Assembly (NCBI RefSeq): GCF_016097555.1
Contig: NC_054706.1
Location: 50,113,513 to 50,177,512, forward strand
Direction of reading: 5' to 3'
Source of the DNA: Gigantopelta aegis
Lineage: Eukaryota > Mollusca > Gastropoda > Neomphalida > Peltospiridae
Length of the DNA stretch: 64,000 bases
Shown here: in pieces, positions 6,061-63,745 of the stretch
Position numbering within the stretch: the first letter of the stretch is position 1
Layout of the letters: each line of letters opens with the position of its first letter
Made by a program: the position numbers and the translations under genes
Notes under the pieces: generated by a model
What the model was told of the DNA's origin: nothing
Database searches by the model: none
Seen by the model: the letters and a program-made list of their open reading frames with translations, nothing else

Positions 6061-6402
6061 CCGTCACATTTAACCGTTTTATTAATTAACTATACGATTA
6101 TACTTGTTGATATTAAGCAAGTCACAGAGAATTGCAGAACACAAACACTGTGATTGGCTTTACTTTGATAGTTTCGGGGGTTGTTGATGAAGTGTTATCC
6201 TTTTTCTGGAGTGTTGTTCCTTTGACAAATAATACTTGTGTTAACAACGTAATTATTATATATGATTTATGTAAACGTATAATAGTTCAATTCTATTTCA
6301 GATCATAACTATTGTAAATCATATATTTGTCCTATGTTTAGCTAATTTTCAGATCAGAAATGCGAAGATGAAAAGGACTTTCGTTGTATATGTTTATTAC
6401 TA

Positions 6403-6440
6403 CACATACACATACACACACGCACACGCACGCACGCACG

Positions 6441-6518
<78 letters not shown>
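6403..6518. repeat. Compound (CA)n-(GA)n microsatellite
   Basis: A CA-rich run changes into about 33 GA units and then GGGA-type repeats up to about 6550. It lies about 170 bp beyond the stop codon of the pyruvyltransferase exon, so it may be in the 3' UTR or just past it. Open frames over it on both strands are artefacts of the repeat. Confidence 0.95.
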
Positions 6519-6522
<4 letters not shown>

Positions 6523-6685
6523 ACGGAGGGAGGGAGGGAGAGGGAGAAAGAAATAGAGAGATAAGAGAAGAAAATGAAGAAAACACAAAATTTGAATACA
6601 GAAATGGACTGCTAAGACTGATTGATACAAGACGTCTTTTACCGAAGAAACATATCTTTTAAAATCTACTTAGCAACATGTATGT

Positions 6686-8118
6686 TCAGTCAAAATGGTC
6701 TTTTGTTCCAAAAAAGTCTTTCACGTCCATTATGGGAGCAATAGACGGCAACTCATCTTTGTATTTTTCCAGTAAAATCAAGGCAAGTTTAACGGCCTTT
6801 GAACTATCGTCCGTTATGAACACATTCTCAAGACTTCTTGTCCATGTGTTATGGAAGGAAGAAAGCTTTTTGTTCTGGTTATCAATCAACACGTGGGGTA
6901 TGTTCAACAGAGTGCTTAAAATGTGTCCGTGGAGACGATCGGTGATCACCACTCGTCCTCGTTGAAGAAACACGAAACCATTGTTCGCCACCAGGAAAAT
7001 AGTTTCCATGGTTGTTGAACCTTTGGTAGTTTTCCAGTCCAGCCAGTCAGATATTTTCACGGTTACATTATTTGGAAACAGCGTCGCTTTGGCTTTGGCT
7101 GAGTATTCGGGTGCCTCCGTATCATTTCGCTTCAGCCATATTACATCATACATAGGGGACATGGTTCGGCTAATGGAACCAATCTGAAATGCCATGTCTG
7201 GTGCCAGTGCTAAGTTAGTGCCGTTATTCCAGTATTTCAGAGCAAAATCCAGTGACTGCCTGTCCCTCAGCAGGATCGTGAGGTTTGCATTGCAGCAGTA
7301 TAGCTTCTTGCAGCGATCAAAGTGACCATCCTTGTACCGATTATCAGGAACGAATATGCTTTGGGGCATTATGAACATCTTGAAGCCATGAAACCTTCTT
7401 ATTAGACCTTCTCTGATGATATCATCCAGCTTGTAGGCTATCAAATTCCCGCCACCACGGAACAAGATAACCAGCTCGTTCTTGGAAAATTGGTTGCTCA
7501 GTTTTTGAGCATAATCTTGTACATTCTTTCTGGCACAATAAGAGTAGGTGCAGTAATGCACTACTTTGATTCCTAATCGTCGTAGTAAATAAACCTCGCC
7601 GGTACTGATTGCAGGATCACCTTTATTTTCAAAGGTGGCAACACTGAAGAGCATAGCGTACTTATACTTACCGATCATATCACCAAATAAATTAAAATGT
7701 ACCCTTTGAGCTTCGCGTATTATCTCAGTACTAGTTGGCAACATCGGAGCCAATACATTTGTGTTTTGTCTATGATCCGAAAGACGCCAATTTAGAAATT
7801 CCTTTATTTGACTCTTATTTCCGGCCAAATAACGTGCCTCTATGTCTGGAAGTAGTTGGCTTCGGTTCATTAATTTTAACGACTCTGGTCCAAAAGATCT
7901 GTCTTTAAAAGAGTCTCTTAAAAATTCGACAGAATTGTGTTGGAACATTTTGATCGATTGTATGTCTGTTGTATTTAGTAGATGGTCACTCGAAGCATAC
8001 TTCTGTATGTCTTTGAGACTCACACCCGTATTACCAACATACATAACCATTCCAGTTAACAACATGCCTAAAAATATCAATGTCAGCTGACGTCTGCAAT
8101 TCGGTGCTTTCAGTAAAT
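6686..8118 (-). CDS. Polysaccharide pyruvyl-transferase domain, terminal exon of a fusion gene
   Basis: PF04230-type enzyme, predicted to move pyruvate from phosphoenolpyruvate onto a sugar as a ketal in the Golgi lumen. Residues are numbered from the in-frame ATG at 8155. A membrane segment lies at 24-41 (LTLIFLGMLLTGMVMYVG). Family motifs are NKGDPAI (177-183), FRGGGNL (232-238), MPQS (263-266), RDRQS (297-301), APDMAF (318-323) and TDRLHGHI (405-412). The RLH triplet corresponds to catalytic residues of fission-yeast Pvg1. There are several N-X-S/T sites. I start the exon at 8118 because tttattttacag directly precedes it on the minus strand. The ATG at 8155 would then lie in the intron. 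The acceptor phase requires one base from an upstream exon, and the exon ending at 9678 supplies exactly that. Stop codon at 6688-6686. The domain call is strong; the acceptor substrate is unknown. Confidence 0.9.
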
Positions 8119-9677
8119 CTGTAAAATAAATCAATAAATATGCTACATATATCATAAATAGGTATCATATCCAACAATTTTATTTGTGATATTTTTCAGA
8201 TAACATACTTCAAGAATTTGATAACTTTGCAAACTACATGTTGATGAATGAGTCATGGCAAAAGGAGTTGCAATTATATAAAAACATATCAATATTTAAT
8301 ATTAACATTTATAGATGGGATCCAGAATTTTGTAAAAGGGGTTAAAACTAATTCTAAAAATGGCAATTTGTGTTTGTTGAAGGGAAATGAGTCGACCTCC
8401 AAGAGGGAGCGAGATTTGTACTGAATTGTGGGGGCATGTTCCCCAGCAAAATCTGAAACATAGATGCTCCGAGACGCATTTTCATGTTAGTGGTATATAA
8501 TGTAGATGATGAATTTGTTTTTTAAAGTACACTCATGTCACCTTAGTCTGCGCGGCACAAAGGTCTGTGCACGTTAATTACGTTACATTACGTCTTTAAA
8601 ACTAATGTTGGGGTATACTTGTAAACAAACAAACAAAAACTGGTAGATAACAATTAGATTGAAAAACAACAACTCTGAACTAATGCACTAAAACTATACT
8701 TTTGCCATCCTCGATCAACGTGTTTTTGTATCATCTATCAACACGTGTCTGTCAACGCTGTAATTATTAACCCTGTATATCAACCTACACACGTTTACAG
8801 AGAAGCTTCAATACATACCTTATTGTAATTTATGAATCTATAAAGGAAATGAATGTTTTATTTTATCTGTTAACGTAAACATCCAAGCATACTTTGGATT
8901 TCCCTCCGAGTGACACAATGCAAAATTGCTGCATACAGACGTTGAAGCTTGCACAGCATGGCCTATTGTAGCTATAGTCTGTTTCAAAAGTATCATTGAT
9001 TGTCCTATATGACTAACGAACACTATTTGTGCTCATTTACAGTTAATAACAGACAACTTTTGTTGAATAATAATCAAATTTTTGACATTGGCTTTTTTAT
9101 ATTGTCATTTTGTGTTGTCCAAACTAAGGAGCATGAAACACCATTTATATTTATCTCATTTGCATAATCAATTTTTTTCTGAAACAGACTATAGTAGGAA
9201 GTGTTTATTGTTTAGAACTTACACAAATCGGATACATTATTTGTTGCTGCTTATGTAAACATTAGCGACAGAAGTGGTTGTTTTAATGTTTGCTGCGCAG
9301 ACATATGTGCCGTCATGCAGGCCAGTAAATACAGGCGGGTCCCACTAAAAATGAGCTCATCACTTGAGTTTAAAAAACATTAAAATTAAAATAACTTTCA
9401 GTTGTAACACGTTTATTGTTCCATTGTACTGTGGCGGTGAAACAAATATTTTTAAAGAAATATTTAACATTAAAATATAACACAAATGCTTAGGTGCGCA
9501 GACTTAGGTGCCACCAGTGTACTCTTCATCACCTAGGAGTAGCCAACCACATGTCAATAAATCTATAACAAATGTAGTTCTCATCAACTGAAATATAAAA
9601 CAAACATACAATATTAAATAACAAAATCATATTTGTGATCAATGTCTTATTAAACTTCGTTTTATTTTAGGTCTTAC
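8119..9677 (-). other. Predicted phase-1 intron linking transporter and pyruvyltransferase exons
   Basis: On the minus strand the intron opens with CAG|GTAAGA at 9678/9677 and closes with tttattttacag|AT at 8119/8118. Both sites match consensus. The split codon is G+AT, giving Asp. No coding exon is evident inside, but a small TIR element is present at 8973-9193. Confidence 0.65.
8973..9193. mobile_element. Small TA-flanked TIR element (MITE)
   Basis: TATAGTCTGTTTCA at the left end is mirrored by TGAAACAGACTATA at the right end, 221 bp overall. The terminal TA fits a Tc1/mariner-type target duplication. No coding content. It sits inside the predicted fusion-gene intron. Confidence 0.6.
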
Positions 9678-10593
9678 CTGAACGTGCATGTTCTCTGTTT
9701 CTGTTATCAACGCCAACTCTTCCCTGTATGTATATTGTAAGTCCCAGTATGCTGATAGCCAAACCTGCAAAATTCCACGGTGTCGCATATCGTTGTCCAA
9801 ACACGTACATAAGAAGAACCACCGTGATTCGCTTGACCATGTTGATGATGCCGTGACTGACCACTGTCGTGTAGTGTATGAGGACCTTGGTCGACGTGAA
9901 GGAGTAGACAACGTGAAAGTAGCTTGACGTCAGCATCAAGCAGATAATCAGCGTCGTCGTGTGTTGCACGATTCCTCTCGATTCCATCACATACACAACA
10001 GCGGCAGCTGTTGCAGTGCACACTACAGCACTGCAGACGTACACGGCAGGCCGCAGTCGTATGGTTGTGGACGTGTTGCCTTCTGATTTGATGGCTACGT
10101 TTCTGATTGCTAGGATGATGTTGGAGGTACACGCCATTAGTACGCCCGTGGAGATCGATGACGTCTCAAAAGGGTTTCCGACGAAGACAACGGCTCCTGA
10201 GACGATCAGAGGCAGACTGATGAGAGTGGATCTGGAAAAAGATGTTTTGTGGACGATATGTTGAACTACAGCACTTGTGATGGGTTCCATCAGTTTGATG
10301 GCAAACGTGGAGGAAGCGTGCATGAATGCCATGCTGCAGTTTGTGGCAATGGTGGCGGCCATATGTGACAGAATTATCACGTAGAATATTTTGTCCCGTC
10401 GTCGAATATCCACTAGCCAGAAGCATGTCAGAACTTGTGAGAGAGTCAGAGAGATGGAGAGTAAAATACCTTGGCCTTCAAAGTTGGTGATGCCTTTATG
10501 TAGAAAGGCGTTTGCGCTTTGGTGGCACAGGAATGATGCCAGTGTCCATGTACAGAAGATAGCCAAACCCCTGATAACAGGAATCGCAGATCT
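9678..10593 (-). CDS. TPT/SLC35-like phosphate-ester transporter, internal exon of a fusion gene
   Basis: This is a 305-codon open exon encoding a drug/metabolite-superfamily transporter of the triose-phosphate-translocator type with about nine hydrophobic segments. Residues are counted from the TTG codon at 10566, nine residues into the exon. Family landmarks are FAIKLMEP (88-95), AIRNVAIK (153-160) and INMVKR (241-246). The lysine after RNV and the KR pair match positions that bind phosphate in plastid TPT structures. The exon starts after a pyrimidine tract and AAG at 10594. No in-frame ATG precedes TM1, so at least one 5' exon is missing. It ends at CAG|GTAAGA. Unspliced reading would stop four codons later (SGKT). 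The phase matches the pyruvyltransferase exon. Phosphoenolpyruvate is the inferred substrate; another phosphorylated metabolite or a nucleotide sugar is possible. Confidence 0.85.
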
Positions 10594-11281: not shown

Positions 11282-11513
11282 CTATTACCTGTGGATCTGA
11301 GAGCCAACCGTTGGAGGTCATATCCAGTTGATCTTTCATCCGACCAATCAAAACTTACAAAATCATGCAAGCGATTTGAAAAGAATTTGAAAACATCCAG
11401 AATTATGCCGAGGGTATACGAAATGCTTCGGGTGAATTATGGATTATGCCAGAAACTAATTTCATTTTAATGTTGACGGAATAAAGACCAGTAGAAATGA
11501 TTTCAGTCAGATT
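11282..11513. mobile_element. Short MULE-family fragment (unit 1)
   Basis: It carries the GTGGATCTGAGAGC start and an ACCAGTAGAAATGATTTCAG end, which resemble the two termini of the complete MULE-like copy at 59286-59822. Confidence 0.5.
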
Positions 11514-11946
11514 TAAAACTAGGGGTAGTCCCTTTAAGGCGTCCTCGCTGTTTCTCATAAATATATTAATGCAGAAATTGTGTCGCTCAAATTACTTGGG
11601 GAAACAGCCTAGGGATGGAATATTTAATTAAAAGGAAAGAGGGAAAACAGCAAGTAATTAAGACACTTTAATATTTAAAAGTTAGTTTGTTTTGTGTAAA
11701 GACACCACTAGAGCACATTGGTTTATTAATCATCGGCTAGTAGATGTAAATCATTTGGCAATTCTGATATATAGTCTTAGAGAGGAAACCCGCTACATTT
11801 TCGATTAGAAGCAAGGGGTATTTTAGAGAGATAGAGAGAGACAGACACAAAAAGACAGACAGAAAGAAAGAGAGATGAAAAAAATCAAATTTATTGAGTA
11901 ATCTATTTGAAGTAAAAGTTAGCATTAAAAAAGTCAAAATAATTAA

Positions 11947-12200
11947 CAATCTAATTAAAATTAACTCCACTATTACATGTGGATCTAACAGCAGCCCGTT
12001 GGAGCTCATGTCCAGTTGACCTTTCATTCGACAAATCAAAACCTTACTTGCAAAATCATGCCAGTGATTTGAAAAGAATTTGAAAATATTCGGGATTATG
12101 CCGAGGGTATACGAAATGATTCGCGTGAATTATGAAGTATGCCGGAAAGTAATTTTAATATAAAATTTTATATAAAATTCGTTTCAAGACGAAAAAAACC
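11947..12200. mobile_element. MULE-family left end, truncated
   Basis: It starts with CAATCTAATTAAAATTA and continues with GGATCTAACAGCAGCCCGTT, matching the left end of the copy at 59286. No matching right end was found, and unit 2 lacks it, so it inserted or survived in unit 1 only. Confidence 0.55.
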
Positions 12201-13631: not shown

Positions 13632-13887
13632 ACCATATTACCTGTGGATCTGAGAGCATCCCTTTGGAGCTCATTTCCAGCTGACCTTTCATTCAACCAA
13701 TCAAAACTTACTTGCAAAATCATGCAAGCGATTTGAAAAGAATTTGAAAACATTCGGAATTATGCCGAGGGTATACGAAATGCTTCGGGTGAATTACGGA
13801 TTATGCTGGAACCTAATTTCATTTTAATGTTGATCTTCGTTTCAAGACGGAATAAAAACCAGTAGAAATGATTTCAGCCAGATTTAA
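13632..13887. mobile_element. Short MULE-family fragment (unit 2)
   Basis: Paralogue of the fragment at 11282-11513, carried by the duplication. Confidence 0.5.
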
Positions 13888-14815
13888 AACCAGGGATAGT
13901 CCCTTTTAAGGCGTCCTCGCTGTTTCTCATAAATATTTTGCAAAATATATTAATGCAGAATTTTTGTCGCTCAAAAAGGGAGTAATCTACAAAGATGCCT
14001 CCCCTTTTAAAAATTATTTGGGGAAACAGCCTAGGGATAGAGTATTTATTTAAAAGGAAAGAGGGAAAACAGCAAGTAATTAAGACACTTTAATATTTAA
14101 AAGTTACAGTTTGTTTTGTGTAAAGACACCACTAGAGCACATTGGTTTATTAATCATCGGCTATTAGATGTAAAACATTTGGTAATTCTGACATATAGTC
14201 TTAGAGAGGAAACCCGCTACATTTTCGATTAGATGCAAGGGGTATTTTATATGCAACATCCCACAGACAGGATAACTGTACATGAAAATTAAATGGTTGT
14301 CTTGTTTTTATCGTTTACGAGAGAAACAGAGACAGACAGAGAGATGAAGACAGAGAGACAGACAAATAGACAGATAGAGAGAGACAGACAGAAAAAGACA
14401 GAAAGAAAGAGAGATGAAAAAATAATAATTTATTGAGCAATCTATTTCAAGTAAAAATTAACATTAAAAAAAGTCAAAATAATAAATGTAGGAGAGACTT
14501 TTTATACTACATAGACGTAACTCACATTGAGGGTTAGGAAACTAACCCACCGCGGCGTAAAAAAGATTGGAGTATGTATTTTACGCTTCACTGGGAATCT
14601 CTTGCTACCAAGCTCTATGGCAACAAAGTGGACCTAGAGATGACGATGCTCTTCATCGTATGATCAAATTTAAAAGTACAGTCTGCGGACGCAAAGAAGA
14701 AAGAAGAAGAAGACTGGGGTTTTTTTAATTCACTTGACATTTGGGGGCATTTGTTCAGCATTGTCACTTTCGAATGTTCATAAGGCATGCACATCTACGT
14801 GGGTATATCTTCAAG

Positions 14816-33639: not shown

Positions 33640-63745
<30,106 letters not shown>

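Follow-up and report, generated by a model that had tools for sequence, protein, structure and literature searches.

Ten apparent fusions of a TPT-family transporter to a pyruvyltransferase in the genome of Gigantopelta aegis

On the minus strand of a 64,000-nucleotide stretch of the Gigantopelta aegis genome (NC_054706.1, positions 50,113,513 to 50,177,512; the whole stretch is called the window below), an exon for a transporter of the TPT family is followed by an exon for a polysaccharide pyruvyltransferase. Do the two belong to one spliced gene, and if so, what might the joined protein do? We compared this locus with its relatives in the 1.15 Gb assembly, in which the window lies on an 81.6 Mb contig (C8). 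The genome appears to hold a ten-gene family, each member apparently joining a phosphorylated-metabolite transporter to a pyruvate-adding enzyme. From the splice sites and reading frames the fusion gene itself is very probable, and it is likely, with somewhat less assurance, that it is a fusion whose enzyme pyruvylates sugars.

The window locus and its paralogs

All features of the locus are on the minus strand. The transporter exon (9678..10593) holds 305 codons, contributes the first base of a split codon and ends CAT GCA CGT TCA G at 9678; the intron opens with GTAAGACC, giving a phase-1 donor TCA G/GTAAGA. The 1559-base GT...AG intron (8119..9677), which is A+T-rich and has homologs at nine other loci, closes with tttattttacag (ttttacag), after which the pyruvyltransferase exon (6686..8118) starts at 8118 with AT TTA CTG AAA, also in phase 1. 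This exon completes the split codon as GAT (Asp) and encodes a membrane span, a stem, the enzyme and the stop codon, and once the two exons are joined, 782 codons run open from 10593 to a stop that ends at 6686. The initial annotation had placed the junction at 9678/8118, with a split GAT and matching phase, and had predicted a product of at least 782 residues; the letters bear out each of these points, and the same arrangement recurs at all ten enzyme loci. If unspliced, the transporter frame meets an in-frame stop after SGKT that ends at 9667. We also note that dispersed repeats make up some of the intron part beside the enzyme exon (8155-8500), where 40 of 277 candidates were scored as matches, spread over many contigs, and that window 6400-6560 holds a (CT)n/(GT)n microsatellite, slightly more than 100 bases 3' of the enzyme stop codon.

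The transporter exon as query finds 11 loci (12 matches, one locus being split in two), three on C8, seven on C4 and one on C1, and the enzyme exon finds ten loci genome-wide. A genome search with the PF04230 profile, in which all 15 candidates were scored (counts for large families are lower bounds), returns the identical ten loci and no others, all above the cut-off. Every one of the ten enzyme exons lies 3' of a transporter exon on the same strand, across the three contigs; the introns between the halves measure 346, 516, 718, 798, 798, 865, 1005, 1559, 6253 and 14101 bases, and the joined frames are open in all ten pairs (754-789 codons). The only transporter copy without an enzyme exon, C8b (C8:50092307-50093240), is frameshifted and sits between two complete pairs; in the 16 kb around it, which include the gap to the next copy and 200 bases of N, the sole enzyme match is insignificant (E 0.37) and falls within the transporter exon itself.

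The splice sites are conserved across these copies. With a donor defined as a phase-1 G/GT with GTAA at the homologous place, ten of the 11 transporter exons read AG/GTAAG and the remaining one AG/GTAAC; one extra phase-1 GGT is present in the scanned stretch in six of the 11, none of them a GTRAG. The enzyme acceptor is CAG/AT in phase 1 in 10/10 copies, two of which have one extra candidate upstream, and the split codon, a single alignment column, is Asp in all ten. Donor, acceptor and phase thus agree, and are conserved, in ten of ten pairs. Immediately after the junction D-x-x-K is invariant in all copies while codons in this stretch vary silently (TCA/TCG, TCT/TCC/TCG, AAA/AAG), as expected for translated sequence lying before the first methionine. 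The 5' end of the transporter exon (10593 in the window copy) is a phase-0 acceptor in all 11, a feature missing from the initial annotation, so at least one further 5' exon must provide the start codon. Separately, in five of the 11 transporter exons (C4b, C4c, C4d, C4e and C4g) a long (AG)n microsatellite starts at the donor or no more than about 30 bases from it, which might affect splicing.

When 45 pairs of copies are pooled, the TPT core has a ratio of nonsynonymous to synonymous substitution rates (dN/dS) of 0.32, and in the seven close pairs it has 0.34; for the catalytic part the values are 0.20 and 0.27, respectively. They indicate purifying selection on both halves. Distances between copies in one half are correlated with those in the other (Mantel r 0.88, a value that none of 20000 permutations reached), and the TPT and enzyme trees share six of seven internal splits, the one conflict lying among three close copies (support 64 vs 99). 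By this measure the TPT-enzyme pair has been duplicated as a unit. Such duplication would fit two linked genes as well, so it is the splice evidence that favors one gene.

The two halves of the predicted protein

The enzyme half carries a PF04230 (PS_pyruv_trans) domain at 6872..7627 that scores 75 bits in the window copy (cut-off 25.3), and it aligns with S. pombe Pvg1p (PDB 5ax7) at E 1.5e-37. With Pvg1p numbering shifted by 53, a value deduced from the letters, the counterparts of D106, R217 and R337, which the PMC4872226 excerpt gives as the proposed catalytic residues of Pvg1, are identical in the window copy and invariant in all ten. The position of H168, which limits acceptor size in Pvg1p, aligns with Asp in the window copy. 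Three sequon columns of this half are present in 10/10 copies and a fourth in 9/10. Scans with two short peptide patterns each, drawn from the alignment of the ten enzyme copies, hit 94 stretches in prokaryotic genomes and 105 in viral contigs, and no relative was confirmed among them. The enzyme half is most likely a ketal-pyruvyltransferase of the Pvg1 type, as predicted from domain and conserved residues.

The transporter half scores 52.5 bits with PF03151 (TPT; cut-off 30), over positions 19-290 of the 291-position profile, and aligns with the Galdieria translocator GsGPT (PDB 5y78) at E 1.4e-5. Under a GsGPT numbering offset of 89, also read from the letters, the counterparts of T188, R266 and Y339 are invariant in 10/10 copies, as are those of K204, K362 and R363. 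The last three form the phosphate site of the solved translocator, according to the PMC11661312 excerpt. Hydropathy predicts nine spans for the transporter half, one after the junction (LTLIFLGMLLTGMVMYVGNTGV, 8021..8086) and another, weak one within the enzyme; the linker is short and net positive in all ten copies. The initial annotation had named both domains and counted about nine transporter helices with one more span. Structure models built for each exon from its single sequence were of too low quality to use (mean predicted local distance difference test scores 42.2 and 33.4).

TPT carriers swap their substrate for phosphate, and ketal-pyruvyl transfer is reportedly accompanied by phosphate release, as the title of PMC8615578 has it; together these point to a putative cycle of phosphoenolpyruvate (PEP) in and phosphate out. 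One spliced gene would encode a protein, presumably of the Golgi, that begins with a TPT-type transporter and continues through a short positive linker and an additional span into a ketal-pyruvyltransferase of the Pvg1 type. Its transporter half would import PEP in exchange for phosphate; its enzyme half would move pyruvate from PEP to terminal galactose, releasing phosphate, which the transporter half would carry back out. The fusion would in this way feed its own enzyme and clear the by-product, and glycolipids or glycoproteins would receive an acidic cap resembling sialic acid. The retention of both the Pvg1 catalytic residues and the TPT phosphate-site residues fits PEP import plus pyruvylation and, if the fusion is granted, this scheme is reasonably likely. 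We see about an even chance for a wider proposal, that a one-chain glycan-capping machine has evolved and been amplified in an animal: a PEP/phosphate antiporter joined to a PEP-using, phosphate-releasing enzyme, with import, use and by-product export linked stoichiometrically in a single cycle at the membrane of the Golgi, and with ten diverged copies that may take different acceptors, as a pyruvate-based counterpart of sialylation.

Alternative readings

Several observations speak against the fusion gene or the PEP/phosphate scheme, and these are weighed here with the explanations that they would favor. The one that survives best, though we consider it improbable, accepts the fusion and holds that the carrier half moves a nucleotide sugar or a phosphorylated compound other than PEP, or is only a multi-span anchor. 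The transporter scores 51.5 bits with TIGR00817, the phosphate/phosphoenolpyruvate translocator subfamily, far under the cut-off of 317.9, so it is placed in the broad TPT family only and PEP as its substrate is a prediction; moreover, Thr occupies the GsGPT H185 position in all ten copies, and the similarity to the one solved TPT, noted above, is weak. Set against this are the six invariant counterparts of K204, K362, R363, T188, R266 and Y339, and the dN/dS of the TPT core, which implies more constraint than a plain anchor needs. The topology bears on the scheme as well. The simple hydropathy scan finds nine spans, not ten, before the linker, and with an odd count the enzyme would end up on the cytosolic side. 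TPT-family proteins have ten helices with both termini cytosolic; ten of them ahead of the linker would leave the enzyme facing the lumen of the Golgi, which is also the side of Pvg1p. The transporter half also has one sequon column in 10/10 copies, so sequons alone are no proof of lumenal placement.

A second alternative, which we find doubtful, is that one gene makes both products, the fusion by splicing to 8118 and a transporter-only protein by way of a candidate alternative terminal exon in the window intron (9529..9587, outside the fusion product). This exon, which the initial annotation lacked, has an acceptor and fits phase 1, reads S-VDENYICYRFIDMWLATPR-stop, and is followed by AATAAA at 9412..9417, one of seven AATAAA/ATTAAA motifs in the intron. 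Its sequence is identical in C8b, but that copy is the frameshifted one; C8c lacks the acceptor, and among the eight introns shorter than 2 kb nothing is alike between clades, similarity being confined to close copies (C8a, the window copy, with C8c; C4c, C4e and C4g). It is possible, from these signals, that 9587-9529 ends a transporter-only isoform of the window copy. Read-through to the stop at 9667 was rejected as a conserved product, the tails past the donor being unlike between clades.

The third alternative dispenses with the fusion: two separate neighboring genes would have been duplicated together, the transporter ending within the intron (at the 9667 stop, or in exon 9587-9529 with its AATAAA) and the enzyme having its own promoter and start, for example the ATG at 8155. 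In seven of the ten copies the first methionine of the enzyme exon is at codon 3 or 6, before the span, and in three (C8a, with the ATG at 8155, C4c and C4g) the unspliced frame upstream of the acceptor has a methionine before the next stop, so a separate enzyme start is possible for those copies. Two pairs have long introns, of 6.3 and 14.1 kb, co-copied pairs would give matching trees too, and the rival terminal exon is present with its AATAAA behind. In addition, the 17-column TPT tail before the junction is unconstrained (dN/dS 1.06, and 3.3 in the seven close pairs), and the linker, additional span and stem are only weakly constrained (0.61-0.77).

We nevertheless judge two separate genes quite unlikely. 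They would not need a donor and acceptor of matching phase, yet these are kept in every pair. The enzyme exon has no methionine before the membrane span in three of the ten copies (the first is at codon 19 in C8a, 75 in C1 and 14 in C4a), and in C1 and C4a there is none ahead of the span in either the spliced or the unspliced frame. An ATG-initiated first exon with a phase-1 GTRAG donor, through which the enzyme might start, was absent from eight of ten introns; there is one such candidate in the C4c intron and there are four in that of C1, of which 8640 of the 14101 bases were unread. Furthermore, the tails past the donor differ between clades, one intron has just 346 bases, and C8c is without the acceptor of the rival exon. 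The fusion proposed in the initial annotation is thus supported by splice sites and phase in 10/10 pairs, constraint on both halves, near-identical trees and the lack of the searched-for start exon in eight of ten introns.

For the fusion gene, the 5' first exon is the missing piece. Peptide and nucleotide comparison reaching as far as 4 kb 5' of the 11 transporter exons (minus 1927 bases for C4d and 200 for C1) did not find it, and neither did comparison of the 15-26 kb that precede the three C8 copies; dispersed repeats turned up instead, and matches in register between clades extend at most about 50 bases beyond the transporter exon. One dispersed repeat, on the minus strand at window ~11300-12130, 13870-14090 and 59100-59490, has a peptide-like reading that includes RMKGQLDMSSN and recurs upstream of several other copies. 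Elsewhere in the window (55557-56183, minus strand) is a 208-residue open frame with Ser/Gly/Phe-rich repeats, overlapped by open frames in other frames.

Chance adjacency of the halves was rejected on the ten of ten pairs on three contigs, and a pseudogene on the open joined frames in all ten.

Comparison with known systems

Both domains are known, and what would be new, as read from the genome, is a carrier and the user of its substrate in one chain. No carrier-enzyme fusion of this kind is described in the titles and abstract openings among the matches listed from open-access PMC; proteins of this architecture may already sit uncharacterised in databases. If the fusion reading is true, it is a natural covalent carrier-enzyme unit kept through many duplications, in which the by-product of the enzyme serves as the exchanged ion. 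Pyruvylated glycans of animals, whose chemistry is known from Aplysia, would gain candidate genes, and their pathway would become open to testing.

The initial annotation had pointed to pyruvated galactose in Aplysia and proposed looking for 4,6 ketals in the species of the window. Pyruvylated galactose is indeed reported in Aplysia kurodai glycolipids (excerpts of PMC6801904 and, for the glycolipid, PMC6994554) and is an animal product of the kind that the enzyme half might make, but the ketal is 3,4-linked on galactose (PMC6801904), and those excerpts name no gene or enzyme for it. The solved translocator GsGPT resembles the transporter half in family fold, as judged by sequence, and in the phosphate-site residues K204, K362 and R363; it differs in having His where the fusion has Thr, and the fusion falls below the TIGR00817 cut-off and has an enzyme attached.

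The closest parallel is fission yeast. S. pombe Pvg1p shares with the enzyme half its domain, the D/R/R residues and a membrane span before the catalytic domain, but it is a separate type II membrane protein (PMC4872226, in excerpt), whereas here a transporter precedes the enzyme. The excerpts of PMC4872226 and PMC6801904 have PEP reaching Pvg1p through the separate transporters Pet1p and Pet2p, whose described role is the one proposed for the transporter half; the comparison is one of role, and they are two separate proteins. Thus, where the yeast Golgi enzyme relies on separate carriers for its donor substrate, supply and use would here be coupled in one chain.

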